Under the pieces are notes generated by a model. It saw only the letters and a program-made list of their open reading frames with translations. It was not told where the DNA came from and searched no databases. From positions 1 to 64,000 of the IMG/VR virus record IMGVR_UViG_3300028400_000004: DNA of 64,000 bases; one strand, given 5' to 3'. The number at the start of each line of letters is the position of its first letter. Within the stretch, counting starts at the first letter, position 1. This DNA comes from a virus. Positions 5,353 through 39,328 of this stretch are shown here, one piece after another. The position numbers were made by a program, and so were the translations under genes.

Positions 5353-5368
5353 TGGCATGCTTGTTGCA
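5353..5368 (+). promoter_or_regulatory. TTGGCATG-N4-TTGCA promoter element, cassette 1
   Basis: TGGCATG-CTTG-TTGCA has the GG/GC spacing of a sigma54 -24/-12 promoter. The same bases can be read as a sigma70 promoter, TTGGCA then 17 bases then TACATA. Sequence alone does not decide. Downstream AATTCATTACATATAAGG is shared with 6059 and nearly with 7031. Confidence 0.5.
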
Positions 5369-5472
5369 ATTCATTACATATAAGGAGAAACCGGCTTTGG
5401 GCTTATTTGGTATGCTTTTTGTAAGCAAACTATTCAATAATTTTGTTTATACCCTTATAAAAAATTTTAGCA

Positions 5473-5500
5473 TTTACAAAGACCATGTTTGTGATATTCT
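5473..5500 (+). promoter_or_regulatory. Cassette 1 second promoter
   Basis: TTTACA, 16 bases, TATTCT with an extended -10 TGA. The block GTGATATTCTA followed by CTTGCCA is shared with cassette 2. The leader contains a TTGCCA-AACG-TGGCAA hairpin. Confidence 0.5.
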
Positions 5501-5544
5501 AGGCTTGCCAAACGTGGCAATAACCAGAACCAGGAGACAATATC

Positions 5545-5916
5545 ATGGAAAATTTAATTTTTTATAAGATTGACCAAATTCCTGAGGTTTTCGCCCCCGA
5601 AGCGGCTTATCTTGATGCCTCGGGATATGCCTTCGTCGGGGTCCTGAAGGGCTCTGATGGCATCATCAAGGCGGCAATATGGTTAGGCCGCCCGCCTACG
5701 CAATCAACCCACATCTTAACTGGCCCCGAGCCGGTTCGGTTCCCTACACGAGAGGGTGTACTTATCCCCATCTCGACGGGGGATACCGGCTGGAATCAAA
5801 TTCCCGCCTTAGTACTACCTGCCCGGTACGGGGCGACTATCGCCCCAGAATATAAGGTAGCCGCTCCGTATCAGGCTGCGCTCATCGAGGCATTTGAGCT
5901 TGGGGAGTTAGCTTAG
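5545..5916 (+). CDS. Cassette 1 GC-rich accessory protein, 123 aa
   Basis: The start is fixed by CAGGAGA 8 to 14 bases upstream of the ATG. The protein begins MENLIFYKIDQIPEVFAPEA and looks like a small beta-rich domain (YAFVGVLKGSDGIIKAAIWL; EGVLIPISTGDTGW). No family is recognised. It is clearly more GC-rich than its surroundings. Its mRNA includes perfect 7-bp stem-loops at 5763-5785 and 5830-5846, a mild form of the pattern in cassettes 3 and 4. It has its own promoters and terminator, so it behaves as an independent accessory cassette. Confidence 0.6.
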   Translation: MENLIFYKIDQIPEVFAPEAAYLDASGYAFVGVLKGSDGIIKAAIWLGRPPTQSTHILTGPEPVRFPTREGVLIPISTGDTGWNQIPALVLPARYGATIAPEYKVAAPYQAALIEAFELGELA

Positions 5917-5922
5917 TGCAGT

Positions 5923-5960
5923 AAACAACCCCTCGACGCTATTTTGTCGAGGGGTTGTTT
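5923..5960 (+). terminator. Cassette 1 terminator
   Basis: A 15-bp stem with core ACAACCCCTCGAC / GTCGAGGGGTTGT starts 7 bases after the stop codon and ends in TTTT. Confidence 0.85.
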
Positions 5961-6058
5961 TATGTCAGTATATTAGAGTTTAATAATATAATGTTAGTCT
6001 GATTTGCCTGATTGTTATATAATAATTTTATTATATAATAATTTTATTAATTACTAAT

Positions 6059-6074
6059 TGGCATGTTTGTTGCA
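6059..6074 (+). promoter_or_regulatory. TTGGCATG-N4-TTGCA promoter element, cassette 2
   Basis: TGGCATG-TTTG-TTGCA, or TTGGCA plus 17 bases plus TATATA if read as sigma70. It is nearly identical to the element at 5353. Confidence 0.5.
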
Positions 6075-6112
6075 ATTCATTATATATAAGGCTGATTGTC
6101 TTTAACATTAAT

Positions 6113-6128
6113 TGGCATAATTATTGCA
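6113..6128 (+). promoter_or_regulatory. Second -24/-12-like element, cassette 2
   Basis: TGGCATA-ATTA-TTGCA. This copy has no good -10 hexamer at 17 bases, so it favours the -24/-12 reading if it is functional. Confidence 0.4.
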
Positions 6129-6170
6129 TTATAAATTAGTCTTATTTATGGCATTATAAAAAATTTAATG

Positions 6171-6198
6171 TTTGTGTTGGTGGATTTTGTGATATTCT
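6171..6198 (+). promoter_or_regulatory. Cassette 2 second promoter
   Basis: TTTGTG, 16 bases, TATTCT. The GTTGGTGG spacer is shared with cassettes 3 and 4, and the -10 region with cassette 1. Confidence 0.5.
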
Positions 6199-6241
6199 AC
6201 ACTTGCCAATTCTGGAAATAGATAATTTGGGGGATAAGACA

Positions 6242-6460
6242 ATGGAAAATTCGCAAGTTAATGCTGCTATTCTTTCTGCGGAAGAAGCGGGGCGCGCCGT
6301 TGTTCGCTTCGGCGCCAATTTCTCGACAATCAAAGAAATATCCGAGTATTTCTACCATGAACTTGCTTATGGATATTGGGATGACATTATCCCAACAATA
6401 TCCGTAGAGCAAGCGCGTGATGCCTTTATCCAAGGCGTGATCGCCGAACAAAACAAATAA
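6242..6460 (+). CDS. Cassette 2 accessory protein, 72 aa
   Basis: The protein begins MENSQVNAAILSAEEAGRAV and is helical and acidic (IKEISEYFYHELAYGYWDD). No family is recognised. Start 6242 is preferred because GGGGGA lies upstream and MEN matches the cassette 1 start; an in-frame codon at 6203 lies in the leader. The mRNA holds an imperfect stem around GGATATTGGGAT and ATCCCAACAATATCC. It has its own promoters and terminator. Confidence 0.55.
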   Translation: MENSQVNAAILSAEEAGRAVVRFGANFSTIKEISEYFYHELAYGYWDDIIPTISVEQARDAFIQGVIAEQNK

Positions 6461-6465
6461 CATAC

Positions 6466-6492
6466 ATTCCCCCACAGATTTTGTGGGGGAAT
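6466..6492 (+). terminator. Cassette 2 terminator
   Basis: An 11-bp perfect stem ATTCCCCCACA / TGTGGGGGAAT with a 5-base loop, followed by TTTT. Confidence 0.85.
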
Positions 6493-7030
6493 TTTAATGC
6501 ATTATATATTAGAATTTAATAATATAATATTAATCTGATTCGCTTGATTACATGCTATGTCATACATGGCATGATTAATGCATGATACATTGATTTAATT
6601 AAATAATTATATAAGTATATTTTTATTTAATCATGGTCTGATTTATGCCTGATTGTTATATAGTTATATAGTAATATAATGCTGATCTGATTCATCTGAT
6701 TGAATATAATTATTTTATTATACGTTGATTAGCTAATACGCCTGATTAAATATTAGAATATAATAATGTAATTGATTCCTGATTCGCCTGATTGGCTATT
6801 AGCATTTAATTATATACTGATTAACTGATTAACTAACACGCCTGATTGGCTATTAGCGTTTTATTATATTTTAATAAAATAATATTATTAAATAATTATA
6901 TTAGAATATAAGAATAAACTTAAGTAACAATATTAGAATATAAAAGAATTTAGGCTCGAGTACATTCTAAAATAAGAATATGATAAAATTCTAATATAGT
7001 TTATTAATTAAATAGGCCAATTTTAGAGTT

Positions 7031-7046
7031 TGGCATGGGTTTTGCA
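7031..7046 (+). promoter_or_regulatory. TTGGCATG-N4-TTGCA promoter element, cassette 3
   Basis: TGGCATG-GGTT-TTGCA, or TTGGCA plus 17 bases plus TATATA. The following AATTCTTTATATAAGG matches the downstream block at 5353 and 6059. Confidence 0.5.
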
Positions 7047-7107
7047 ATTCTTTATATAAGGGATTGCATAAGGATAAGATTAAGTTATGTGGCTATAGAA
7101 TTTTTTA

Positions 7108-7173
7108 GTGTTGCGTTGGTGGGCGAGTATGTTATCCTAGACTGGCCAATGTAGGATCACACTAAGAGGAGGA
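7108..7173 (+). repeat. 66-bp promoter/leader repeat, copy 1
   Basis: Bases 7108-7173 are identical to 8068-8133. The block carries TTGCGT (7111-7116), 16 bases, TATCCT (7133-7138), then a leader ending in AAGAGGAGGA, a strong Shine-Dalgarno. The identity stops exactly before the differing start-codon contexts, so it works as a portable expression leader. Confidence 0.9.
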
Positions 7174-7177
7174 GGTC

Positions 7178-7675
7178 ATGATCTATCCCGCTACTGATCG
7201 TCACTTTGTGATCTTCGGCGGGTACTCGCCCGCCGTCATCTACGTCACCCCCGCGTGGGGTGACGACCTGGACCGCTTTTTTGCGCTCCAGTTCATCCCC
7301 GCTTGGGCGGTCCCCGCCCAGGTGGACCGCTACGGGAAGGTCCAGGCGGCCTTCCCTGACCCGGAGGGCCTACGACTGGCCTTCCGGTCGGCCCCTTACG
7401 GCCGGGGGCCGGAACGGGTCTCGGTCTTTTCGCCAGAGGGGGATCATCCCCTCTGGCGGGTTTTCGAATTGGACGGGGTCAATCCCCGTCCAATTCGCCA
7501 ATGGGTGGTCCGGGGACCCCGGACCACCCCCATGGCCCACCCCGAACCTCAGTCGGGGTGGGTCCCACCCACCGAATGGGGGCGCTCGACCCCCTATTGG
7601 GTCAGCCCGTCAGGGCTGACTTTCCCCCAAGACGTGCCCGACCACCGGCGGCCACATTGGTGGCCGCCGGTTTGA
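7178..7675 (+). CDS. Cassette 3 open frame, 165 aa, or structured RNA
   Basis: An ATG follows AGGAGGAGG, so translation is well supported. The first part, MIYPATDRHFVIFGGYSPAV, looks protein-like. The rest is Pro/Trp/Arg-rich (PHWWPPV at the end) and no family is recognised. The region is very GC-rich, and other frames on the same strand are also open, so frame length alone is weak evidence. Nearly the whole message folds into successive perfect stem-loops (see 7216-7711). It may encode a protein whose mRNA is structured, or act as RNA with incidental coding. Confidence 0.45.
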   Translation: MIYPATDRHFVIFGGYSPAVIYVTPAWGDDLDRFFALQFIPAWAVPAQVDRYGKVQAAFPDPEGLRLAFRSAPYGRGPERVSVFSPEGDHPLWRVFELDGVNPRPIRQWVVRGPRTTPMAHPEPQSGWVPPTEWGRSTPYWVSPSGLTFPQDVPDHRRPHWWPPV

Positions 7676-7711
7676 CCCGCACCCCGCCCCACCAGATTGG
7701 TGGGGCTGGGT
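7216..7711 (+). other. Array of about 15 consecutive stem-loops in cassette 3
   Basis: Inverted repeats in order: 7216-7235 (7 bp), 7243-7265 (9), 7302-7322 (9, one GU), 7323-7344 (6), 7348-7370 (8, one GU), 7374-7389 (6), 7389-7411 (7), 7431-7458 (11), 7465-7497 (14, perfect), 7503-7529 (12), 7536-7562 (10), 7575-7598 (8, one bulge), 7601-7620 (8), 7644-7671 (12), 7681-7711 (terminator). Stems differ in sequence and loops are 3 to 10 bases. Confidence 0.85.
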
Positions 7712-7714
7712 TTT
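7681..7714 (+). terminator. Cassette 3 terminator
   Basis: GCCCCACC / GGTGGGGC with loop AGATT, extended by CCC/GGG past one mismatch and followed by TTTT. Confidence 0.8.
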
Positions 7715-7947
7715 CTATTGGCCAGAATATTAGAATATGATAATATAATTGCAAATTTATGTATATTTTTAATTATATTATTATATTCTGATTAGTGCCT
7801 GATTGGCATGACTGATGCATAACATGCCTGATTGGCCTGATTGCGAAGCAACATGGCCATGATTGGCCTATATCTTGCATGGCCTGCTGGCTAGAATGGG
7901 TCTTAGAATCAGTCTAATAATCATTACTGCTATGCAGTAATGTTAAC

Positions 7948-7969
7948 AATAATCATTATCATTATCATT
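7948..7969. promoter_or_regulatory. Fur-box-like hexamer array
   Basis: The minus strand reads as three consecutive GATAAT-like hexamers (GATAATGATAATGATTATT), the classical Fur recognition pattern. It lies upstream of cassette 4, directly before a TGGCACG-CATT-GTGCA element (7969-7984) and after a 9-bp hairpin (7922-7942). Short AT-rich matches can arise by chance. Confidence 0.3.
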
Positions 7970-8067
7970 GGCACGCATTGTGCATACATGCACGAATTGT
8001 GCCATGCTGAGGATGGCATGGTGTTTGCTAAAAATAATATGAGTTTATGGCAGGATAAGAAATTTAT

Positions 8068-8133
8068 GTGTTGCGTTGGTGGGCGAGTATGTTATCCTAG
8101 ACTGGCCAATGTAGGATCACACTAAGAGGAGGA
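8068..8133 (+). repeat. 66-bp promoter/leader repeat, copy 2
   Basis: Identical to 7108-7173, at an offset of 960 bases. TTGCGT at 8071-8076, TATCCT at 8093-8098 and the Shine-Dalgarno at the end drive cassette 4. Confidence 0.9.
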
Positions 8134-8139
8134 TTCGTT

Positions 8140-8532
8140 ATGACCCGCCCCACTACCAAAATTCGTACCACCACCATCTCCACCAAGCTTGTCGTGCAGG
8201 AAATATTCCTGCACGACACAGGGGAGCGTCACGTCAAGGGCCGTTGGGCCCAGGTCGGCACATGGAAGTGCCGGCATATCTACGTCCGCCACGACGTGTG
8301 GCGGACCCTCCAAGGCCGCCCAAACCCCCCAACCCTCGTCCTTGAGGTCTTGGACCTCAGGGACGAAATCCTCAGGGCGTCCCTCTCAGGGGACGTGGGC
8401 CCCCTGACAGTCACCCGCAGGTCCGAGCGACGGCACATCGGTGGGCCGTCCTCCATGGCCACCGCCCAGGTCCAATGGTGGGACCTGGGCGGGGTCGTCG
8501 GGATCGGAGGGATACCGCCGTCCGATCCCTAA
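8140..8532 (+). CDS. Cassette 4 open frame, 130 aa, or structured RNA
   Basis: The ATG lies 8 bases after AGAGGAGGA of the repeated leader. The product starts MTRPTTKIRTTTISTKLVVQ and is basic and Arg-rich, with no family recognised and no similarity to the cassette 3 product. It is very GC-rich and several frames are open. As in cassette 3, the message is a chain of perfect inverted repeats, so RNA function or protein plus RNA structure both remain possible. Confidence 0.45.
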   Translation: MTRPTTKIRTTTISTKLVVQEIFLHDTGERHVKGRWAQVGTWKCRHIYVRHDVWRTLQGRPNPPTLVLEVLDLRDEILRASLSGDVGPLTVTRRSERRHIGGPSSMATAQVQWWDLGGVVGIGGIPPSDP

Positions 8533-9566: not shown

Positions 9567-10082
9567 TTATATATTCAATTCTTCCATTTTATTTTTTATT
9601 TGTTTAGCTAGATATAAAAAGTGATTAGTGCTTATACATGGTTTTTTGTTTTCAAAAATGAAATTGAATAAAACATTTATAGCTACCGTTTTATGATAGC
9701 CTATACCATTACTACAGTTATTTATGTTTAATAAACTGAGTGTTGTTATGAGGACGTTATATTTGTCTATTTAGCTGAGTTTAATATCGCGATATAGTTT
9801 ATGCGTATATAATTTTATGTAGGTCCCTACTTACATATTATTTATTTTTATGTAATTGTTTTTGCCATAGGTAGGGCAGAAGCTAATAAAAGTATTTCGG
9901 TTGATAAGTATTTTCTGTGGTAAAGTGCTATTTAATATAGTAATTTCCTTTGTTATACTGTTCAATATAGTAGGCTCTGTTCTATCTAACAATACTTTAT
10001 AATAATATAAGTCTTTGTATAGATTGTAAATAGTATTTAGACTGGTTTTATTTAGGTTTGGTATGAAAAGATTTGTATCCAT
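9567..10082 (-). pseudogene. Paralogous family member 1 with two in-frame TAA codons
   Basis: The frame starting at 10082 (MDTNLFIPNLNKTSLNTIYN) stops at TAA 9831-9833. The same frame continues through a second TAA (9771-9773) to a final TAA at 9567-9569. The distal part (DKYNVLITTLSLLNINN ... KQIKNKMEELN) matches the C-terminal half of the neighbouring paralogues, and total length (172 codons including the two internal stops) fits them. Two nonsense changes without a frameshift suggest recent decay. Stop-codon read-through is a less likely alternative. The first 83 residues could still be made. Confidence 0.75.
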
Positions 10083-10084
10083 TG

Positions 10085-10567
10085 TTAGCTGATTAATGGC
10101 TTTCCATACATTATAGTGTGTAGGGTGTTTATTTTTTGTTTGAAGGATTCAGCCGCAAATATATAATAAGATGAGGTCGGAGGCATTTTGGTTAAATAGA
10201 TATATAATAGTAATGAAGATAATGGATAATAACGAAAAGTCTTATCTTGTTTAAGATTAAGCAATGATATGCTTATTATATAAAGAAATGCAAATCTGTT
10301 TGGTTTTGTAAATATCTCAAATGTATCTATAGAATAATTATATAATTCTGTGTATATAAAACACAAAGAAGGCACTATATGTAATCTGCCGTCACTTACA
10401 TAATAAGAAATGTTTTTATCATAAGATAGTGTCCTCAATTTTTTGATGAATAATGTGGTTAAGGGCCTTGGAAAATTGTCTGTTAATTCTTGGTAGTTAT
10501 TTATGTCATTATATAATTCGTATAACTCATGTAGTTCTGATTTGGTAGGTGTATAGTCAATAAACAT
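10085..10567 (-). CDS. Paralogous family member 2, 160 aa
   Basis: Members share an N-terminal segment of the type ELYxLYNDIxNYxxL, a middle strand region (here RLHIVPSLCFIY), a hydrophobic helix followed by LLxLK/D (ISISLLNLKQDK), and a C-terminal K-x-KI-x-x-L-x-xI-x-Y motif (ESFKQKINTLHTIMYG). No known family is recognised. It overlaps the start region of member 3 by 11 bases, so the genes are translationally linked. Confidence 0.65.
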   Translation of the reverse strand: MFIDYTPTKSELHELYELYNDINNYQELTDNFPRPLTTLFIKKLRTLSYDKNISYYVSDGRLHIVPSLCFIYTELYNYSIDTFEIFTKPNRFAFLYIISISLLNLKQDKTFRYYPLSSLLLYIYLTKMPPTSSYYIFAAESFKQKINTLHTIMYGKPLIS

Positions 10568-11075
10568 TTAATGTCTCATTAAATAATAAATTTAGCTGAC
10601 GGATTTTGTTTTTAAATGCATTAAATATTATACTAGTACAAGTAGATTGCCTTATACTATAATTTATGTTGTTTGCTTTATATGTTCTTTCTAATAAAGC
10701 GTACTCATTAAATATGATAACATCGTTTGCTATTTTACTTTGGGTATGGGTATATTCAAACAAACAAGTTGTAAGCATGTATAAAAATTGGAATTTTAAA
10801 TCTTTTTCATGTGAAAGCCTTTCCCAATTTATAATTGTATAAGCATTTAATTCTTTTATGTATATAAAATTTCTATGATAAAGATTGAAAACTATAATGT
10901 CATCCCTTAAATATAAAGGATCGCCATGCATTGTAGTATTTAATTGTTTTAGCTTGTTTGATAGAATTTTGATGAGTTTTTCATTATAAGTGTCCATAAG
11001 ATAATAGTATTTAAATATATCATTATAAATACTATAAATTTTAGGTATGTCGTCCTTATTGAAATCCACGAACAT
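10557..11075 (-). CDS. Paralogous family member 3, 172 aa
   Basis: It begins MFVDFNKDDIPKIYSIYNDI, close to the openings of members 2 and 5, and keeps the NTTMHGDPLYLRDD mid-segment and a C-terminal KNKIRQLNLLFNE. It is more diverged in the central hydrophobic helix (LYMLTTCLFEYTH). The function is unknown, and it is AT-rich like the rest of the operon. Confidence 0.65.
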   Translation of the reverse strand: MFVDFNKDDIPKIYSIYNDIFKYYYLMDTYNEKLIKILSNKLKQLNTTMHGDPLYLRDDIIVFNLYHRNFIYIKELNAYTIINWERLSHEKDLKFQFLYMLTTCLFEYTHTQSKIANDVIIFNEYALLERTYKANNINYSIRQSTCTSIIFNAFKNKIRQLNLLFNETLNVY

Positions 11076-11076
11076 T

Positions 11077-11307
11077 TTATTTGTTGAACGACAATGTAAC
11101 GCAAATTACACCACAATTTGTGGCAACCGTATGAATCCTAGAGACGCCGAATACGACGAAATCTCGTTTTTCCCTAGAATTTTCAGTGCAATAACAACTA
11201 TTTACCATGTCATAATAAAAAAGTTTGTTGCCGTAACCAACAAAATCACAAAAAGGATCGCGATCATTACAGGCAAATTCTGTATAAATCTGTAATGGAA
11301 ATAACAT
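11077..11307 (-). CDS. Cys-rich hypothetical protein, 76 aa
   Basis: The minus-strand frame has AAGGAAG just before the ATG and lies in the operon direction, ending one base before the member 3 start. The sequence contains scattered Cys (EFACNDRDPFCDF, SCYCTENSRE, NCGVICV) and no CxxC pair. A plus-strand frame across the same bases (11047-11295) lacks context and is rejected. No family is recognised. Confidence 0.45.
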   Translation of the reverse strand: MLFPLQIYTEFACNDRDPFCDFVGYGNKLFYYDMVNSCYCTENSREKRDFVVFGVSRIHTVATNCGVICVTLSFNK

Positions 11308-11325
11308 AACTTCCTTTTTGAAACC

Positions 11326-11559
11326 TTAAATTCCTATAAACCACGCATCATCATGAGCACCTATCCCGAATAGAAACTTATGTATTATAACTTCCTTTAC
11401 GTTAAATTGTTTGTTCAATTCTAAAAGAAAAGTATCAGAAAAATCTAAAACACTGATGGCAGGATTATCTTGAAATGGCTTTTTGTGTGTCCGTAATTGT
11501 ATTTCTGTGTCTGACAAGTAATCAACTAGGGCTTGGTAAATATCTTTATAGTTTTCCAT
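11326..11559 (-). CDS. Hypothetical protein, 77 aa
   Basis: The gene starts behind AGGAGCC and begins MENYKDIYQALVDYLSDTEI. It ends in FGIGAHDDAWFIGI, a short Gly/Trp-rich tail. It is soluble and acidic with no motif assigned, and sits between two paralogue-family genes. Confidence 0.5.
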   Translation of the reverse strand: MENYKDIYQALVDYLSDTEIQLRTHKKPFQDNPAISVLDFSDTFLLELNKQFNVKEVIIHKFLFGIGAHDDAWFIGI

Positions 11560-11588
11560 ATATTGGCTCCTAAAGAAGTAATAAGAAA

Positions 11589-12131
11589 TTATTTACTGTA
11601 CATGATTGATTTTAATTCGGTTATTTTTCTTTTTATATTTTTATACATGAAATCGTAATAAACATCAGCCGGCATAGTTAAATAATGATCAAAAACAATT
11701 TTATATAACCTATAAGAATCTACTGGATAAAATTCTTTTTTTGGATACTCTGAATCTTTTTTTATATCAAGTAAGCACATTGATAATATAAAGAAGAAAT
11801 AATTATCAAGTTCACTTTTATTTATACTTGTAAATAAATAATGGCCATCTATTCTTATACCAGTATCGTAGTATTCTACATGTTTTGAAAGGAAAGTTGG
11901 CGCAAAATAGACACTATCATTCGATATTATTAGTATATCACGATGCAAATTTGCATTTAATGTGGTAATATCTGTTAATAGTGTATCCACCAACACTCTA
12001 TTTTGTCCGTTAAGTAGGGTTTGGTAATTATATAAATCTATAAATTTGTTATATAACTCAATAATTTGTTTTTTCGTCGGTAATGTGTCTATAAAAATGT
12101 CTTTAGGGGTCATTGGTTTAATCCTAAACAA
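11589..12131 (-). CDS. Paralogous family member 4, 180 aa
   Basis: The clearest representative of the family: IIELYNKFIDLYNYQTLLNG, LLTDITTLNANLHRDILII, SVYFAPTF, FFFILSMCLLDIKKD, then KNIKRKITELKSIMY. Its N-terminus (MFRIKPMTPKDIFIDTLPTK) is slightly longer than in the others, and the ATG at 12113 is a possible alternative start. It directly abuts the methyltransferase gene. Likely helical; function unknown. Confidence 0.65.
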   Translation of the reverse strand: MFRIKPMTPKDIFIDTLPTKKQIIELYNKFIDLYNYQTLLNGQNRVLVDTLLTDITTLNANLHRDILIISNDSVYFAPTFLSKHVEYYDTGIRIDGHYLFTSINKSELDNYFFFILSMCLLDIKKDSEYPKKEFYPVDSYRLYKIVFDHYLTMPADVYYDFMYKNIKRKITELKSIMYSK

Positions 12132-12812
12132 TCAATCACTGAACGCAAGTGTGATAAGTGCCGTTGCCGCCACAATTGGAACTTGTCCGTTTCCAATGCA
12201 GCGAAATCTATCCATCCTATGGGCCATCCCATTAACCATTCTTCCGTTTCTGGGATTCTCCGCCCAAACACTTTGGTATGATTTTTGCAACTTTTCCATT
12301 TCTGCATAGATGGTGCATTGTAATTTGCTTTTGTCGTCGGCGTATGCAAGTAACCAATATCTTCTCCGAACGTGGTCACTACCCAAGTCTTTCGCGGAAA
12401 GGGAAATACCTTGGACTTTGTAACCCAGCCCAGCCAAATCCCTTCCTGCATGTTCAATCGCGTTCTTGCTGACATTTTCAGCAAAGACATACCATGGGGC
12501 GACTTCTCGTACGATTCGGAGCATTTCTGGCCACAAGTCTTCTGCAACTTTTCTGCCTCTACTTGCACTAGAAAATGCCTGGCACGGATAACCGCCCGAA
12601 ATGATATCCACAAGTCCTTCCCAACGTCTTCCATCAAATTCTTTGACATTTTCAAAGATTGGGAAAGGTGGCAAATGGCCTTCGTTTTGCCGCATAAGCA
12701 CAATGTTCCTGGCGTATTCGTTGATTTCAACACCGCATACTGGATGGATACCGACCAATGTGGAGGCCAAAATGCCTCCACCGCAGCCTGTGAAAAGTGA
12801 TAGTTCATTCAT
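12132..12812 (-). CDS. DNA (cytosine-5-)methyltransferase
   Basis: This 226-residue protein has the C5-methyltransferase motifs in order: SLFTGCGGG (motif I, AdoMet loop), GGYPCQAFS (motif IV with the catalytic Cys), FAENV (motif VI), VRRRYWLLA (motif VIII) and IGNGQVP (motif X). It is short for the class, with a compact target-recognition region, so specificity cannot be read. AAAGGAG precedes the ATG. No cognate restriction enzyme is seen. It probably protects phage DNA or alters host methylation. It is more GC-rich than its neighbours, suggesting separate acquisition. Confidence 0.9.
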   Translation of the reverse strand: MNELSLFTGCGGGILASTLVGIHPVCGVEINEYARNIVLMRQNEGHLPPFPIFENVKEFDGRRWEGLVDIISGGYPCQAFSSASRGRKVAEDLWPEMLRIVREVAPWYVFAENVSKNAIEHAGRDLAGLGYKVQGISLSAKDLGSDHVRRRYWLLAYADDKSKLQCTIYAEMEKLQKSYQSVWAENPRNGRMVNGMAHRMDRFRCIGNGQVPIVAATALITLAFSD

Positions 12813-12827
12813 TTGCTCTCCTTTATC

Positions 12828-13616
12828 TTATATAAATAATTTTTTCATCGCAGCTTGTTGCTGTCTTTTAGTCAAATCATCGATAGAGACTAAGCTTGAA
12901 CCATTATTATATAGAATATAACGCAAGGAAGGTTTTACATACTTTATATCATATTCCCCATATAAAAACTTACAATTATCAACTACATAATGGTCTAGGT
13001 TTACTTTAGATTTTTTTATTAAAGTATTTAATTGCCTTTTGTAAAAATCATTAAAAAATGAGGGGCTATAATGCGAAGATAATAATTCTTCATTATCCAA
13101 AATACTTAAATAATAAGTACTAGTATAAACCTTTCTATATATATTTTTATCAGCCAAACTTAAGAATAAAAATGTATATAAGTCATATTTATTTATTTTA
13201 TTATCAAAAAACGAATAAGAAAAAGCTGTTGTATTTACCAGACAAACAAAAAATGCTTTTCTCATTTTTTGCTTTTTTAACAAGTCTTTATATCTATTTT
13301 TATTATAAAACAGTGCATACAAAAGTAATATATACTTATTATACTCAGAATACATTTTAACTTTATTAGAAATTATAAGCCTCAAATACATCTCCAAATC
13401 AAAAGTATTCAAAAATTCAACAAATATTTCATAATATTCTTGTTTATTGTATCCATCCCTGTATAAAATGCAAAAAGGCTCATTTTTAATTGTTTTTTTA
13501 AACTCAAAAATGTCTAGTTTGTTCGTATTTAAACAAAAATGCATCTTCGCGATTTCTTTACGAACGTTTCTATCATTCACACAAAATAAAAAATTTGATA
13601 GTCTGAAAGTACACAT
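12828..13616 (-). CDS. Hypothetical protein, 262 aa
   Basis: A Lys/Tyr/Phe-rich AT-biased protein starting MCTFRLSNFLFCVNDRNVRK behind AAGGAGC. It is helical, with no transmembrane or catalytic motif recognised. It ends LTKRQQQAAMKKLFI. It sits in the paralogue-family operon but does not show the family signature by eye. It could be a longer relative or an independent gene. Confidence 0.55.
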   Translation of the reverse strand: MCTFRLSNFLFCVNDRNVRKEIAKMHFCLNTNKLDIFEFKKTIKNEPFCILYRDGYNKQEYYEIFVEFLNTFDLEMYLRLIISNKVKMYSEYNKYILLLYALFYNKNRYKDLLKKQKMRKAFFVCLVNTTAFSYSFFDNKINKYDLYTFLFLSLADKNIYRKVYTSTYYLSILDNEELLSSHYSPSFFNDFYKRQLNTLIKKSKVNLDHYVVDNCKFLYGEYDIKYVKPSLRYILYNNGSSLVSIDDLTKRQQQAAMKKLFI

Positions 13617-13641
13617 AAAAGCTCCTTAAAATATTGTCACA

Positions 13642-14139
13642 TCAACTAACAACAATCGAATGTAATTGCTCTATTTTATATTTTATCAACTCAGCAAACC
13701 CCGTATAGTAACTGTTTTTATCATTCATAAATATAATTAGATAAATAAGATTAAAAGAAGTGGGGCGGGCAACTTGAACACCTTTCTCTGATTTTATATC
13801 CAATAAACAAATGGAAGTCAATAGAAGAAAAGTGTTGATATAAGGCTGGCTAAAACGTTCATTATAATAATATAAATTTGTATAAAGTATGCTTGAATAC
13901 TTATTACCATTATATACAATAAGATTAAGCCCAATGGTAGGGCTAAAATATAATATGTTGTTCTGGATTATTAAAACGTTTTTTGGTAATTTATTATTTA
14001 TGCTTCTTAAAGAAGCAATTAAATCATCTACTAAGCCTTTGTTATACACCCCTACAAGTAAATAATATTCATAAATATTAACAAATAGCTGGTATGCAAA
14101 GTCTAAGTGTTCTTTGTCTGGCAACTTATCCATAAACAT
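13642..14139 (-). CDS. Paralogous family member 5, 165 aa
   Basis: It carries all family landmarks: FAYQLFVNIYEYYLLVGVYN, SINNKLPKNVLIIQNNILYF, SPTIGLN, LLLTSICLLDIKSE and LIKYKIEQLHSIV. It begins MFMDKLPDKEHL, parallel to members 2 and 3. It overlaps member 6 by one base. Function unknown. Confidence 0.65.
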   Translation of the reverse strand: MFMDKLPDKEHLDFAYQLFVNIYEYYLLVGVYNKGLVDDLIASLRSINNKLPKNVLIIQNNILYFSPTIGLNLIVYNGNKYSSILYTNLYYYNERFSQPYINTFLLLTSICLLDIKSEKGVQVARPTSFNLIYLIIFMNDKNSYYTGFAELIKYKIEQLHSIVVS

Positions 14140-14660
14140 TATAAAAGTTCATTATAAATTTTATATATTTTAGGTTTTACTATATTAACTATTTTATGGT
14201 ATAATGTGTTGCTACAACTAGTAACTTTAGTTAAATGATCTATCAAAAAACTAATACTTATAATTTTATAATCAACATTTTTATTTCTAATAACCATACA
14301 AGACGAAAAATAAAGTAATATTGCGAACTCAAGTTTTATATCTTTACAGCGAAATCCTTGACAAAAATAATCAGAAAACGCTATATAAATATTATCCTCT
14401 TTTAGATTTACATAAGCATTACCATCAAAAGTTATATTGAAAAAGAGATTATTATTGGATTCATATAATACAAAAGGAGAAATTATAGAATCATTCATTT
14501 CCATTAGTATTTTATTAAACTTTAATAATAGTTCTGATGAATAAACTTCAAGTATTTCCCGATATTTATGAATATCAACATACAGCTTGCATAATTCCTC
14601 TATATAATAGTTATTTACATCAATATTCGAACTCATAATAAAATCTCTATAAAAAATCAA
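14139..14660 (-). CDS. Paralogous family member 6, 173 aa
   Basis: A diverged member: ELCKLYVDIHKYREILEVYS and ILLYFSSCMVIRNKN correspond to the N-terminal and hydrophobic segments, and IVKPKIYKIYNELL to the C-terminal motif. It is packed between members 5 and 7 with one-base spacing on each side. Confidence 0.6.
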   Translation of the reverse strand: MIFYRDFIMSSNIDVNNYYIEELCKLYVDIHKYREILEVYSSELLLKFNKILMEMNDSIISPFVLYESNNNLFFNITFDGNAYVNLKEDNIYIAFSDYFCQGFRCKDIKLEFAILLYFSSCMVIRNKNVDYKIISISFLIDHLTKVTSCSNTLYHKIVNIVKPKIYKIYNELL

Positions 14661-14661
14661 A

Positions 14662-15228
14662 TCAAAAATACTTTGTTATATTGAACAAACATTTATACAT
14701 ATGAGTAAATTCCCTCAATATTTCTTTAGGAATATATCTATCATATTGTTTATTAAAAACGATTGACTTATATATAAGATTAAAAAATAACTCTCCTTCT
14801 CCAAATATAATATCTCTTTTAAGTGTTTTTCTTTCTTTATAATACTTACATAAAGATATGACCAAAATAAACGGAAATTCATATACAATGTCTCTTATTT
14901 TTCCTTGTTCATATACAATAGTACTATATCCATAAACTTTATAATATGTAGCATCGTACCTAAAAAGACTATAAAGAATTTTAGTGGAAAGACTTAAACA
15001 ATTAATCCCATTTGTCTCATAAGTAACACATTCCATACCAAACACATTATTGTAATAATTAAAACTGTCCAACAACTTATTATCTACATCATTCGTTAAA
15101 ATATAATAATTATACAACGCTAGATAAGCATTATACATTTCCTTTATAAAGGAAATGTCTTCAACAAGTTCTATCTTTTTCTTATCAATCCAATCATTTT
15201 CTGCCAGTCGATCCAAATCCATTTTCAT
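14662..15228 (-). CDS. Paralogous family member 7, 188 aa
   Basis: The longest member, with an added acidic N-terminus (DLDRLAENDWIDKKKIELVE) before MYNAYLALYNYYILTNDVDN, the family opening. It retains FPFILVISLCKYYKERK. Its start overlaps the end of dut by 35 bases, so it was probably appended to an existing dut gene. Confidence 0.6.
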   Translation of the reverse strand: MKMDLDRLAENDWIDKKKIELVEDISFIKEMYNAYLALYNYYILTNDVDNKLLDSFNYYNNVFGMECVTYETNGINCLSLSTKILYSLFRYDATYYKVYGYSTIVYEQGKIRDIVYEFPFILVISLCKYYKERKTLKRDIIFGEGELFFNLIYKSIVFNKQYDRYIPKEILREFTHMYKCLFNITKYF

Positions 15229-15670
15229 TCCTTCCAGTTTTGATACCCTTAGCCATGTTTTTCAAAATTTTAATTTCTGGGATAATAACAGGCATAAATA
15301 AAATTTGACAAACGCGCTCATTATGCTCCAATTCATATGCCTTATCACTTGTATTTACTAATGTAACATACACAACGCCATGATAGTCACTATCAATAAC
15401 ACCAATTTGGTTTCTTAGTTGAATACCATGCTTAGCGCTAATACCAGAACGCATGGTAACAATACCGACGATATTTGGGTTTCTAATATAAAACTTCCAA
15501 CCAGTAGAAAATTTTTTAACTTCTCCAGGCTCTAAATAGTACTTAAATAAACCTTCTCTCAGTAAATCCACCCTAAGGTCAAATCCTGCGGACCCATCCG
15601 TAGCCCGCTTTGGCATAGAAGTATCTCCATCTTTCTGAATATGAACGACTGCCTGTAAATCTTCTAACAT
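15194..15670 (-). CDS. dut: dUTP diphosphatase (trimeric dUTPase)
   Basis: All five dUTPase motifs are visible: ATDGSAGFDLR (1), MRSGISAKHGI (2), IGVIDSDYHGVV (3), ERVCQILFMP (4) and GRNENGFGSTG (5). Length (158 aa) is typical. The enzyme hydrolyses dUTP to dUMP, keeping uracil out of DNA and feeding ThyX (55650-56495) with substrate. It directly follows dCMP deaminase in the operon, the preceding step of the same pathway. Confidence 0.95.
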   Translation of the reverse strand: MLEDLQAVVHIQKDGDTSMPKRATDGSAGFDLRVDLLREGLFKYYLEPGEVKKFSTGWKFYIRNPNIVGIVTMRSGISAKHGIQLRNQIGVIDSDYHGVVYVTLVNTSDKAYELEHNERVCQILFMPVIIPEIKILKNMAKGIKTGRNENGFGSTGRK

Positions 15671-15680
15671 TTTTACCTCT

Positions 15681-16172
15681 TTATTGAATCAATTTATCTT
15701 TTAACAGAATATAAATAGGAATATCCGCTTCTTTACATATTTTATATGTTTTTTGCAAGGATTCATTCCATCTGGAAAACCTTTTATTCATAACAATGAA
15801 GTCTTGATGCACTACTATACCAGAAATTCCGGCAGTAATCAACTGTACACAGCACCTAATGCACGGCGGCATTGGGTATAAATAAAGCCAAGTACTCCTA
15901 ACATCTTTATGGGCATTGAGTACAGCATTGATTTCTGCATGTATAATTAAATCATATTTAACACTTCGATCATTATATCTATCATCATCTTTTATATTTG
16001 GGGGAAACCCATTATATCCAAACGAATAGAACTCTTTGCCTTTGGCTAATACTGCACCTACTTGCGTACTGGGGTCTTTAGACCAGCTTGACACATGCTT
16101 TGCTAATTCAACCCATCTACTATGCCATTTTATTTCGTTTGACAAGACAATGGTCTCCGTGATTTTTGCCAA
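15681..16172 (-). CDS. Deoxycytidylate (dCMP) deaminase
   Basis: This 163-residue protein contains HAEINAVLNA (zinc His and catalytic Glu) and MPPCIRCC (zinc Cys pair), plus the N-terminal WSKDPSTQVGAVL and GYNGFPP motifs of dCMP deaminases. It converts dCMP to dUMP. It overlaps the upstream 274-aa gene by 43 bases and ends 10 bases before dut starts. Confidence 0.95.
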   Translation of the reverse strand: MAKITETIVLSNEIKWHSRWVELAKHVSSWSKDPSTQVGAVLAKGKEFYSFGYNGFPPNIKDDDRYNDRSVKYDLIIHAEINAVLNAHKDVRSTWLYLYPMPPCIRCCVQLITAGISGIVVHQDFIVMNKRFSRWNESLQKTYKICKEADIPIYILLKDKLIQ

Positions 16173-16954
16173 TTTTTTATAATACTATCCCATTCTTTTA
16201 ATGTAGTGTCTCTATTCGATTTCCAAATAAAAGGATTATTCCAATTAAAATAAACAAACATAATTACGACTTCCTCCATCTCTGGCTGACCTACTACTTT
16301 ATAATACCAAATCATTTCGTCAAGTACGCAAATACGGGTCATTTTATCTATATTACATAACTTGCGTCGGCATTGTGCTATATATTTATCCGTATTTTTT
16401 ATATAATTGTGCATATACAATTCAACTTCTAAACCGTTCTTTATTACTATATCATCATTAATAGTTTTTAATTTTTCTACAATACTATCCATGTTGAAAT
16501 TTGTTAAATAATATTCTCGCATTAACTTAGTCTTCGTATATCCAACATATAGTAAACAAGCAAAATATTCTATTTCTTTTTCTTCTAATATAAATGTCTT
16601 GTGTAAATGCTGGTTAAAGAACTCTATTAGTATGTCTATTGTCCCTTCCGCTAATCCTTCTTCTTTCTCTATAATGTCATTATCTTCTTTTTTATTATAT
16701 ATACGATAGGCTATTCTTCTTATCTGTAAATTAGATAAAGATAGATTATTTACTAATTTTTTAGTTTCTGGATCATTCAAATCTATATGCGTCTTTACCT
16801 TATAATTTGGATCAATACTTTTTATTTTCTGCTGTACATAAGGTCTATTTATGTTCAAGGCTTTGGCAATATAACTGTATGGATATTTTTTTTGCATTAA
16901 CTGTTTTAGTAATATATATTTCTTATCGTCCCAAATAATACGTTTTTTTGTCAT
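16130..16954 (-). CDS. Putative HTH DNA-binding protein, 274 aa
   Basis: The N-terminus IIWDDKKYILLKQLMQKKY followed by SYIAKALNINRPYVQQKIKS has the spacing of a helix-turn-helix (W-x-x-x-K-x-x-L ... IAxxLxxxxxxVxxKI). The remaining 220 residues are helical and unrecognised. It is the first gene of this minus operon, divergent from the portal gene, a location typical of a regulator or a packaging factor. I cannot distinguish a transcription factor from a diverged small-terminase-like protein. Confidence 0.55.
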   Translation of the reverse strand: MTKKRIIWDDKKYILLKQLMQKKYPYSYIAKALNINRPYVQQKIKSIDPNYKVKTHIDLNDPETKKLVNNLSLSNLQIRRIAYRIYNKKEDNDIIEKEEGLAEGTIDILIEFFNQHLHKTFILEEKEIEYFACLLYVGYTKTKLMREYYLTNFNMDSIVEKLKTINDDIVIKNGLEVELYMHNYIKNTDKYIAQCRRKLCNIDKMTRICVLDEMIWYYKVVGQPEMEEVVIMFVYFNWNNPFIWKSNRDTTLKEWDSIIKNWQKSRRPLSCQTK

Positions 16955-17039: not shown

Positions 17040-18491
17040 GTGTTTTTTCGCAAAAAAAGTAAAGACCGCAAACAAATAGAATCGTCTCCTACAGAGATTT
17101 TAGGTTATAAGAAAAGTTCGCCACCCTCTTATGGGTCTGTAGAATTACTAGATGCGTACAACAAAATGCCATGGCTTCGTGCTGTGGTGGGAAAAATAGG
17201 CCAAGCTGTAGGTACTACAGAATGGCATGTATATAAAGCAACAGATCAAAATAATAAGTCAAGAAAAATAAAAAATTTAACTGTAACTTCAAAGGAAAAA
17301 CGCAACAAAGTATACGAGCAAGGCTTCTATAAAAGCGGAAAGTCTATTTATCCGGTAGAGGAAGTTTTAGACCATCCTATTCTAGACTTGCTTTATAAAG
17401 GAAATGAGTATTTTATAGGAAGCGTTGTTTTACAAATTACCCAAATACATTTAGATTTGGTTGGCGAAGCATTTTGGCTATTAGAGAAAAATAAATTGGG
17501 CCAACCCATCGGTATTTGGCCATTACCTCCTACCTGGATCAAAGATTTACCAACTAATGAGCATCCTTTCTATAAAATACAGTTTGGCAATTCTGCAGCT
17601 CAACGAGAAATACCAGTAACAGAAATTATAAAATTTGTTGATCCTAACCCATTAAACCCCTATGGCCGTGGTAGTGGTATTTCAAGAGCATTAGGTGACG
17701 AATTAGAAACGGACGAGTATTCTGCTAAGTTTTTGAAAACATTTTTCTATAACAAAGCCACGCCTGACGTTATCATTTCAGCAGAAGGTTTACAAAGAGA
17801 GGATACCGAAAGACTAGAAGCTAATTGGTTAGCAAAACACCAAGGATTCTTCAAAGCATTTAAGCCCTATTTTATAAATAGAAAACTTGATATAAAAACC
17901 ATAGGATATGACATGCGTGCCCTTCAAATGACTGAACTAAGAAAAGTCGAAAGGGATATTATTATGCAAGTATTCGGTATCCCGCCAGAAAAATTAGGGC
18001 AAAACTCTGCTTCTAATAGATCAACGATCACTGCCGCAGATTTATTCTGGACAAAAGACATATTAATGCCACGGATTGAAAATATTAGAAGAACATTACA
18101 GCTTCAATTAGTGCCCTTGTTTGATGAGACACTAATTTTAGATTTTGACTCACCTATTGTAGAAGATAAAGAATTAGAATTACAAATAATGCGAGCAATG
18201 CCGGGTGCCTTTACAAAAAATGAATGGCGTGCCGCAGCAAATAAACCATCATTAGGAGAAGCCGGCGACGTATTTATTTTACGAGCAGGGGAAATGGAAG
18301 TATCCATAGATAATAACCAAACTGAAAATCAACAAACTACGGATACACAAAATGCTTCTTATGAATTATTTAATGAATTAAAAAATAAAATAGTATCTAA
18401 TTTAACAAAAGAACAAATTAAAAAAATAGAAAAATCCATAGGAATAGATGAGTTTGTAAAACAAGCATTACAACATTACGAGGGTAAATAA
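17040..18491 (+). CDS. Portal protein (HK97-type)
   Basis: This 483-residue protein has the portal layout: an N-terminal arm, SYGSVELLDAYNKMPWLRAV, then FVDPNPLNPYGRGSGISRAL and IMQVFGIPPEKLGQNSASNR, which are characteristic of phage portal family proteins, and a C-terminal charged tail. It forms the dodecameric ring at the capsid vertex. The start is GTG with AGGG upstream. It is followed two bases later by the prohead protease, the usual HK97 order. The terminase normally upstream is missing. Confidence 0.9.
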   Translation: MFFRKKSKDRKQIESSPTEILGYKKSSPPSYGSVELLDAYNKMPWLRAVVGKIGQAVGTTEWHVYKATDQNNKSRKIKNLTVTSKEKRNKVYEQGFYKSGKSIYPVEEVLDHPILDLLYKGNEYFIGSVVLQITQIHLDLVGEAFWLLEKNKLGQPIGIWPLPPTWIKDLPTNEHPFYKIQFGNSAAQREIPVTEIIKFVDPNPLNPYGRGSGISRALGDELETDEYSAKFLKTFFYNKATPDVIISAEGLQREDTERLEANWLAKHQGFFKAFKPYFINRKLDIKTIGYDMRALQMTELRKVERDIIMQVFGIPPEKLGQNSASNRSTITAADLFWTKDILMPRIENIRRTLQLQLVPLFDETLILDFDSPIVEDKELELQIMRAMPGAFTKNEWRAAANKPSLGEAGDVFILRAGEMEVSIDNNQTENQQTTDTQNASYELFNELKNKIVSNLTKEQIKKIEKSIGIDEFVKQALQHYEGK

Positions 18492-29445: not shown

Positions 29446-29939
29446 CTAGGGTTATAGACTCTAATAGACTTGCAGATTTATTATCTAGTACGCCTGATGA
29501 TATTATATTGCAAACCGTTACATATAGCGATACTAATGGCAACTTATACAGATTCGTAAGTAATCTAGAAGATATTACGGTAGGAGCAGACACCTATAAA
29601 GCATTACCATTTCAAATTACGTTACCAAAAGAAAGTTATAATAATTATGTAAACAAAGCATCATTATCTTTTGATAATATATCTCAAGATTTGACTACTT
29701 ATTTACGGCAAAACGCTAGGGGAGCTTCTATAGATTTAGGATTAGTGGCAAAAGATACCAATGGTAACTTTTCATTTATATATGGTCCCGTAAGATTTGA
29801 TGTATTAAGTGTTTCATATAGGTTGGGATTACTGGCGATTGAATTAGGCTTTAGAACTATTAACATAAACTCTGCATTTATTCGCCATAAATTAGATACT
29901 ACTATTGCACCCGGTATATGGCTAGATAACAAACTATGA
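29442..29939 (+). CDS. Minor tail protein, DUF1833/gpL-like
   Basis: A 165-aa protein. YKALPFQITLPKESYNNYVN and KASLSFDNISQDLTTYLRQN match the DUF1833 pattern (F-x-x-xLP, IdNv, lR). In many siphoviruses it sits between the M-like and NlpC/P60-like genes as here. It is a probable hub component at the tail tip. Confidence 0.7.
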   Translation: MTRVIDSNRLADLLSSTPDDIILQTVTYSDTNGNLYRFVSNLEDITVGADTYKALPFQITLPKESYNNYVNKASLSFDNISQDLTTYLRQNARGASIDLGLVAKDTNGNFSFIYGPVRFDVLSVSYRLGLLAIELGFRTININSAFIRHKLDTTIAPGIWLDNKL

Positions 29940-30292
29940 TGACAAAAGAAGAATGGCTACAACAAGCATTATATACACCATATATCCATAACAAAGAACA
30001 ATTAAGGATAGGCTTTGACTGCTTTGGATTAATAAAAAATTATTACAAGAATGTTCTTGGAATTAAATTAAATAATGATTTATTGAAAATGAAAAATATG
30101 TTTATAAAAAAGTTTGCCCCAAAAAACAATGGAGATATACTAATACTACATGGAAAACCAACACATGCAGTATTATATTGGGGTGAAGGACTATGTTTAC
30201 ACATAACAAGTAGTACTATTTATCCTGTATTTGAAAGACTGACAAATCCAGAAATAAAAAATTACAGAGCAGTATATGCGAAAAAACACTAA
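29936..30292 (+). CDS. NlpC/P60-type tail tip peptidase, gpK-like
   Basis: A 118-aa protein. GFDCFGLIKNYYKN holds the catalytic Cys and KPTHAVLYWGEG the His of the NlpC/P60 fold. The fold cleaves peptidoglycan peptides, and in tails it helps cell-wall penetration. It is smaller than lambda gpK, keeping only the peptidase domain. It overlaps the tail-tip gene by 17 bases. Confidence 0.8.
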   Translation: MMTKEEWLQQALYTPYIHNKEQLRIGFDCFGLIKNYYKNVLGIKLNNDLLKMKNMFIKKFAPKNNGDILILHGKPTHAVLYWGEGLCLHITSSTIYPVFERLTNPEIKNYRAVYAKKH

Positions 30293-38853: not shown

Positions 38854-39093
38854 TTAATACCTATTAAATTTTAGTTTATATATTCTTGATATATTCTTTA
38901 TTTTATTACGTTTATTCCTAAATACCAAACATTCTCTTTCCTCATACTTAGACTTCCTAGTATTTACCATTACTAATTTTTTGAACTCTCTATAATCACG
39001 CTTACCCTGCCAGAAATATTTAATATGTTTTTTCCTGTGTGATCTAATTAAATCGTAAAACCTACTTCCAAATACATTTTTAGTATCAAACAC
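38854..39093 (-). CDS. Basic hypothetical protein, 79 aa, duplicated
   Basis: The first 50 residues (MFDTKNVFGSRFYDLIRSHR, then KKHIKYFWQGKRDYREFKKL) are paralogous to the 58-aa protein just upstream. Both genes share the leader GTTTGTGAGG. Very basic, so nucleic-acid binding is plausible. Function unknown. Confidence 0.55.
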   Translation of the reverse strand: MFDTKNVFGSRFYDLIRSHRKKHIKYFWQGKRDYREFKKLVMVNTRKSKYEERECLVFRNKRNKIKNISRIYKLKFNRY

Positions 39094-39151
39094 AATTAAG
39101 CCTCACAAACATAATAATTTATAATAAATTGATATATAATTTTTACATTAC

Positions 39152-39328
39152 CTATTTCATTATATTTATTTCAAAAACTGATTTAGGTCTTCTACTATTC
39201 AAAATAAGTAACTTCTTATACTTTCTATATTCCCGCTTGACATGCCATCTATATTTAATATTACTTTTTTTATAATTATTGATTAAATTATAAAACCTAT
39301 AACCAATCATTTTATTATAGTTAAACAT
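39152..39328 (-). CDS. Basic hypothetical protein, 58 aa, paralogue of its neighbour
   Basis: MFNYNKMIGYRFYNLINNYK, then KSNIKYRWHVKREYRKYKKL aligns without gaps to the 38854-39093 product. The leader GTTTGTGAGG with ATG 9 to 10 bases on is shared. It is shorter at the C-terminus. A local tandem duplication is the simplest origin. Confidence 0.6.
   Translation of the reverse strand: MFNYNKMIGYRFYNLINNYKKSNIKYRWHVKREYRKYKKLLILNSRRPKSVFEINIMK

Follow-up and report, generated by a model that had tools for sequence, protein, structure and literature searches.

A local family of seven diverged paralogous genes, one of them broken, in a probable early unit of a tailed phage

Seven homologous genes (m1–m7) were found on the minus strand at positions 9567–15228 of the window, i.e. 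of the whole 64,000-nucleotide stretch analysed (bases 1–64000 of an 83,753-base record). Sequence comparison identifies them as one real, local paralogous family with common ancestry. The family has no counterpart in the libraries and collections searched; paralog arrays in phages as such are already known. Our preferred reading, held tentatively at a probability of roughly 0.38, is an old family of non-enzymatic helical binding proteins that was duplicated in place and is subject to birth and death in an early unit, with copies that would face host partners.

BLASTP joined m1, m2, m4 and m5 mutually (E about 4e-7 to 2e-14, database size 1e6). An HMM of these four scored m3 at 35.8 bits, m6 at 13.9 bits and m7 at 12.3 bits, each above 500 of 500 own shuffles and above every unrelated ORF in the window, the best of which reached 4.6 bits. 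As extra decoys, 197 ORFs of at least 100 aa were taken from the rest of the phage, an IMG/VR record and the AT-rich phage Melnitz-3. With a five-member model, the members ranked top (m7: E 2.5e-5, m6: E 1e-4), and the best decoy had an E of ~2. The weakest test matched m6 to a model of all the remaining members; its 8.9 bits (E 0.02) still exceeded every shuffle and decoy, and m7 reached E 0.0009 in the full leave-one-out. Scores were 13.9–16.8 bits for m6 against core-member models and 12.3–18.8 bits for m7 against models of other members. With such modest scores, m6 and m7 are the weakest links, and a sceptic could grade their membership as probable.

The initial annotation had proposed this relationship, and BLASTP, leave-out profiles, shuffles and decoys all agree on it. 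It had named a profile alignment without significant relationship as the result that would speak against it; the relationship proved significant. Its description as a local expansion with low mutual identity also holds: a profile search of the whole record found exactly seven family places, all within 9567–15228, and pairwise identity was 15–31%. The number of full genes has to be corrected from seven to six, since two in-frame TAA codons interrupt m1. Two other ORFs were considered as members and rejected. The 262-aa ORF within the array scored no better with the family models than its own shuffles, and the ORF at 29936–30292 gave weak scores (E down to 0.009) but encodes NlpC/P60.

Table 1. 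Genes of the array and of the neighbouring part of the unit (positions in the window)
Feature	Position	Strand	Remarks
m1, broken member	9567..10082	-	in-frame TAA at codons 84 and 104
m2, 160 aa	10085..10567	-	BLASTP with m4 (1e-10 to 9e-14) and m5 (about 1e-8); profile
m3, 172 aa	10557..11075	-	35.8 bits with the m1/m2/m4/m5 model
Two short ORFs, non-members	11077-11559	-	
m4, 174 aa from ATG 12113	11589..12113	-	BLASTP; AlphaFold2 model
C5 cytosine DNA methyltransferase, non-member	12132..12812	-	PF00145 E 2.5e-22; phrog_363 7e-44
262-aa AT-rich ORF, non-member	12828..13616	-	no Pfam or convincing PHROG match
m5, 165 aa	13642..14139	-	BLASTP, profile
m6, divergent, 165 aa from ATG 14636	14139..14636	-	profile
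m7, most divergent member, 188 aa, longer N terminus	14662..15228	-	profile
dUTPase	15194..15670	-	phrog_135 8.9e-44
dCMP deaminase	15681..16172	-	phrog_174 2.1e-31
274-aa protein, first gene of the unit	16130..16954	-	sub-threshold HTH_28, E 0.19

In transcription order, the unit comprises the 274-aa protein (tentatively with an N-terminal helix-turn-helix), dCMP deaminase, dUTPase, m7, m6, m5, the 262-aa ORF, the methyltransferase, m4, the two short ORFs, m3, m2 and m1. At most junctions the genes overlap or are separated by between a few and about 25 bases: the end of m3 and the start of m2 overlap by 11 bases, the m5 start codon and the m6 stop codon share one base, and the start of m7 overlaps the end of the dUTPase gene. 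Longer ORFs starting with TTG extend m4 to 12131 and m6 to 14660; the ATG codons in Table 1 are the most likely starts of both genes. The unit is divergent from the structural genes, which begin at 17040. Judging from these neighbours, the array, the dCMP deaminase and the dUTPase probably form one close-packed early transcription unit. A promoter scan found sites no more numerous than in shuffled sequence. Several members have no clear ribosome-binding site, which would fit coupled translation.

The array region has a GC content of 23–29%. The methyltransferase differs, with a GC content by codon position of 0.53/0.43/0.43 compared with about 0.3/0.2/0.2 in its neighbours, and it shares 53–55% identity with its counterparts in Pseudomonas and Klebsiella phages. 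Because of the higher G+C content and this identity, it is probably a later arrival. DNA methyltransferases are a classic route of restriction escape, and this one is a possible anti-restriction gene.

Outside the array, a sigma-54 (-24/-12) promoter-like sequence, TGGCAYRNNNNTTGC, had five exact matches on the plus strand at 5353–8028 (chance expectation in the whole window: 0.08). Such a pattern is unusual for a phage. Four matches (5353, 6059, 6113 and 7031) lie about 130–190 bases upstream of a short, G+C-richer ORF, and the fifth (8014) precedes the ORF at 8140 by 112 bases. A leader of about 65 bases, with AAGAGGAGGA at its end, is repeated at 7110–7176 and 8070–8139. It precedes different G+C-rich ORFs (7178–7675 and 8140–8532), neither with a Pfam match, which end in terminator-like hairpins; the whole reads as a set of repeated expression cassettes.

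The phage origin assumed in the initial annotation is borne out by portal, head, tape measure, polymerase and terminase genes, which mark a tailed phage. Encoded in the window are the portal, a head protease, the major head protein, the tail tape measure, a RuvC-like resolvase, dUTPase, dCMP deaminase, the large subunit of ribonucleotide reductase and helicases. Beyond it lie DNA polymerase, a clamp loader, a single-strand binding protein, the large terminase, a sigma-factor-like gene and the small subunit of ribonucleotide reductase. The portal was less than 30% identical to those of named phages among the matches listed; relatives in IMG/VR were closer (terminase 42%, portal 47–50%, major head protein 55–64%). 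The family was not detected in these relatives, which are fragments of 4–51 kb that may miss the corresponding place.

The first 50 bases of the window and the last 50 bases of the record (the end of L012) agree save three mismatches. The record may thus be close to complete, a genome that nearly closes on itself and varies between strains at the join. Tandem pairs of small paralogous ORFs (44–47% identity) occur at 38854–39328 of the window and at 78853–79383 of the record. A group I intron (Rfam, 108 bits) lies on the minus strand at record bases 77843–78089 (L012:13843–14089). As it is overlain by an opposite-strand ORF (L012:13795–14202), the latter is probably spurious. Four tRNA genes (Thr, Arg, Lys and Leu) lie on the minus strand within L012:13138–16478.

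Some of the motifs described for the proteins fade in m6 and m7. The proposed opening, YNxxxxYxxL, is better written as Y..Y.....Y..L and includes one invariant Tyr (model position 25), the only column invariant across the seven. LLDIK and KxKIxxLxSI stand out clearly in m2, m4 and m5 and can be recognised in m1; m3 and m6 have them in part, and m7 has nearly lost them. K.KI..L near the C-terminal end is frequent among members. Further well-conserved columns are Leu, Ile, Phe or Tyr, together with Asp4, Asn48, Ser106, Cys108, Lys156 and Lys158 (model numbering), and these columns are generally absent from at least one copy each. Conservation is thus chiefly of hydrophobic or structural positions. 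Since the well-conserved polar columns are each missing somewhere, no catalytic set is kept, and the seven-member alignment contained no enzyme-like set of polar residues common to all members.

An AlphaFold2 model of m4, computed from an alignment with the five further intact members, had a pTM of 0.79 and a mean pLDDT of 74. The predicted order is two helices (9–29, 34–47), a beta-hairpin (56–65) and three helices (94–109, 128–136, 146–167); residues 71–78 were not trusted. Helix 2 has a clear conserved face and helices 1 and 5 have a hydrophobic face. The hydrophobic helix 3 has neither type of face, and the C-terminal helix has no clear conserved face. A hydrophobic segment is present in every copy, and no signal or convincing membrane segment was predicted (best 19-residue Kyte-Doolittle mean 1.25, usual value 1.6).

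Apart from its two TAA codons, the m1 frame is open to the end, and the residual N-terminal ORF has 83 aa (9831–10082). Upstream of the first stop 25/81 residues are identical to m4, and downstream of it 22/85. As both parts are equally similar to m4, m1 was lost late, or only its first 83 residues are now made. Rescue of m1 by stop-codon reassignment was rejected: TAA is an ordinary stop codon in this phage, where it terminates long core genes whose frames are open under table 11. The broken copy fits gene turnover, and with one copy dead and the others kept, the copies are individually dispensable.

Divergence between members was near saturation at third codon positions (for m4 and m5, for example, 0.67; 0.68 expected from base composition) and well below expectation at second positions (0.41; 0.67 expected), a contrast that is partly a product of aligning the proteins. 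It fits old duplications and long selection on the protein sequence. The low identity and the near saturation of third positions argue that the duplications are old; a recent expansion with ongoing divergence does not agree with six intact members at 15–31% identity. At this divergence, rates of adaptive change are beyond measurement, and a tree of the seven members had no support above 53%.

No significant family match was found in Pfam, PHROGs, NCBIfam or PADLOC. The best values (E 0.018 to 0.18) were for one member each and for unrelated families. There was no significant match in a viral contig collection (queries m4, m5 and the four-member alignment), a genome contig collection (m5, m4), a phage collection (m4, m5, m7) or a plasmid collection (m4); these searches detect only close relatives of single proteins, and distant ones could escape. 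The seven-member profile gave a best E of 0.09 in PDB sequences, for haspin kinases, which was judged to be composition-driven. With the m4 model, Foldseek returned nothing at E <1 in PDB or BFVD, and VIA-align gave only uninformative Z values of 2.1–3.2. No Bcl-2 chain was among the fold matches, which excludes nothing; the model is of moderate confidence. Host-factor adaptation, immunity and paralogous subunits, the functions offered by the initial annotation, were supported by no homolog of known function, fold match or enzyme motif.

Under the preferred reading, a small alpha-helical binding scaffold would have been duplicated in place within a tailed phage, and its copies retained through gene birth and death in one early (non-virion) unit. 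The array genes would be made together early in infection. Each copy would retain the scaffold and show a different surface to a different partner, and the partners would be host proteins, most likely defence or takeover targets. We favour, on indirect grounds, a host-facing binding scaffold because there is no catalytic signature, because one copy could be lost and because a possible anti-restriction gene lies in the unit. Small orphan proteins from early phage regions often target the host, which also speaks for this reading. Anti-defence genes are reported to cluster (PMC7648647). What counts against it is that no member matched the anti-defence, defence or takeover families in Pfam, PHROGs, NCBIfam and PADLOC. 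The promoter scan and the missing conserved face on helix 3 and the C-terminal helix also speak against it, and the lone methyltransferase of other composition beside the array may be a chance arrival.

Four other explanations were weighed. The six intact copies could each take a separate position in a hetero-oligomer, such as one that includes the replication or nucleotide enzymes encoded upstream. Co-directional, overlapping genes suit coupled translation and fixed ratios, and the hydrophobic conservation would suit shared interfaces. However, a complex of fixed composition would not readily tolerate the loss of m1 with the rest kept, and the array is broken up by the unrelated 262-aa ORF and by the methyltransferase with its different base composition; we consider such a complex unlikely. 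A little less likely still is a paralog family of the virion, made up of internal head or ejection proteins that reach the cell together with the DNA. Among published large tandem paralog arrays of phages, the nearest precedent is of this type (PMC5694885), but it comes from giant myoviruses that carry virion RNA polymerases. The present array is on the minus strand behind nucleotide-metabolism genes, opposite to the head and tail module, with head genes on the plus strand from 18494 onwards; such placement is a weak criterion, as some known members do not follow it.

That the family is largely neutral, decaying and accessory, with little present function, might be read from the broken m1 and from its AT-rich, orphan nature with no counterpart found elsewhere. 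Yet six copies have stayed open over 160–188 codons at 23–29% GC despite their low identity, and the codon-position contrast points to long-standing selection at the protein level, which makes decay quite improbable. The explanation we rate lowest is superinfection exclusion or immunity directed at later phages. Small, diverged, multi-copy proteins could each block a different competitor, and the hydrophobic segment of every copy would suit this, but the Kyte-Doolittle values stay below the membrane threshold and known exclusion families were unmatched in PHROGs and Pfam. The host-inhibitor battery, the multi-part complex and the ejected head proteins are separable by simple experiments. Should different members prove to inhibit different host systems, the array would supply new anti-defence proteins, ready made and all built on one scaffold.

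Arrays of paralogs are not new in phages but are described as uncommon (PMC5694885). Most dsDNA phage genomes were reported to be without paralogs (Kristensen et al. 2011, cited in PMC5694885), and going by that citation, seven copies in an 84-kb genome are unusual and need a reason. The literature found on comparable phage arrays was mainly the work on SPN3US, whose head contains 20 members of paralog family B; phiKZ has five inner-head paralogs (PMC5694885). As in the present phage, these are families of numerous diverged paralogs; many of their genes are numbered consecutively, and the function of family B is unknown (PMC5694885). They differ in being virion head proteins of giant myoviruses, shown by mass spectrometry (PMC5694885), whereas m1–m7 are encoded away from the structural module, next to dUTPase and dCMP deaminase, in a tailed phage of 84 kb. 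In the library and phage-collection searches, there was no sequence match to them.

Clustered anti-defence genes (PMC7648647) likewise combine small orphan proteins with a DNA methyltransferase in one unit. Those clusters consist of tested inhibitors from different families, whereas the present array is a single family with no known anti-defence gene beyond the possible anti-restriction methyltransferase. The Bcl-2-like family of vaccinia and other poxviruses offers an analogy in the way of working only: several small helical proteins per genome have very low identity, and one scaffold is reused for different host targets (PMC2907574). For the poxvirus proteins, Bcl-2-like folds have been solved and targets tested (PMC2907574), while m4 is a predicted model that contains a beta-hairpin and orders its elements differently, and there is no sequence link. 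By this analogy, which we hold to be doubtful (somewhat less likely than virion proteins, somewhat more likely than decay), the phage might have followed a poxvirus-like strategy, turning a new scaffold into a battery of non-redundant inhibitors of different defence or takeover targets in one early operon.
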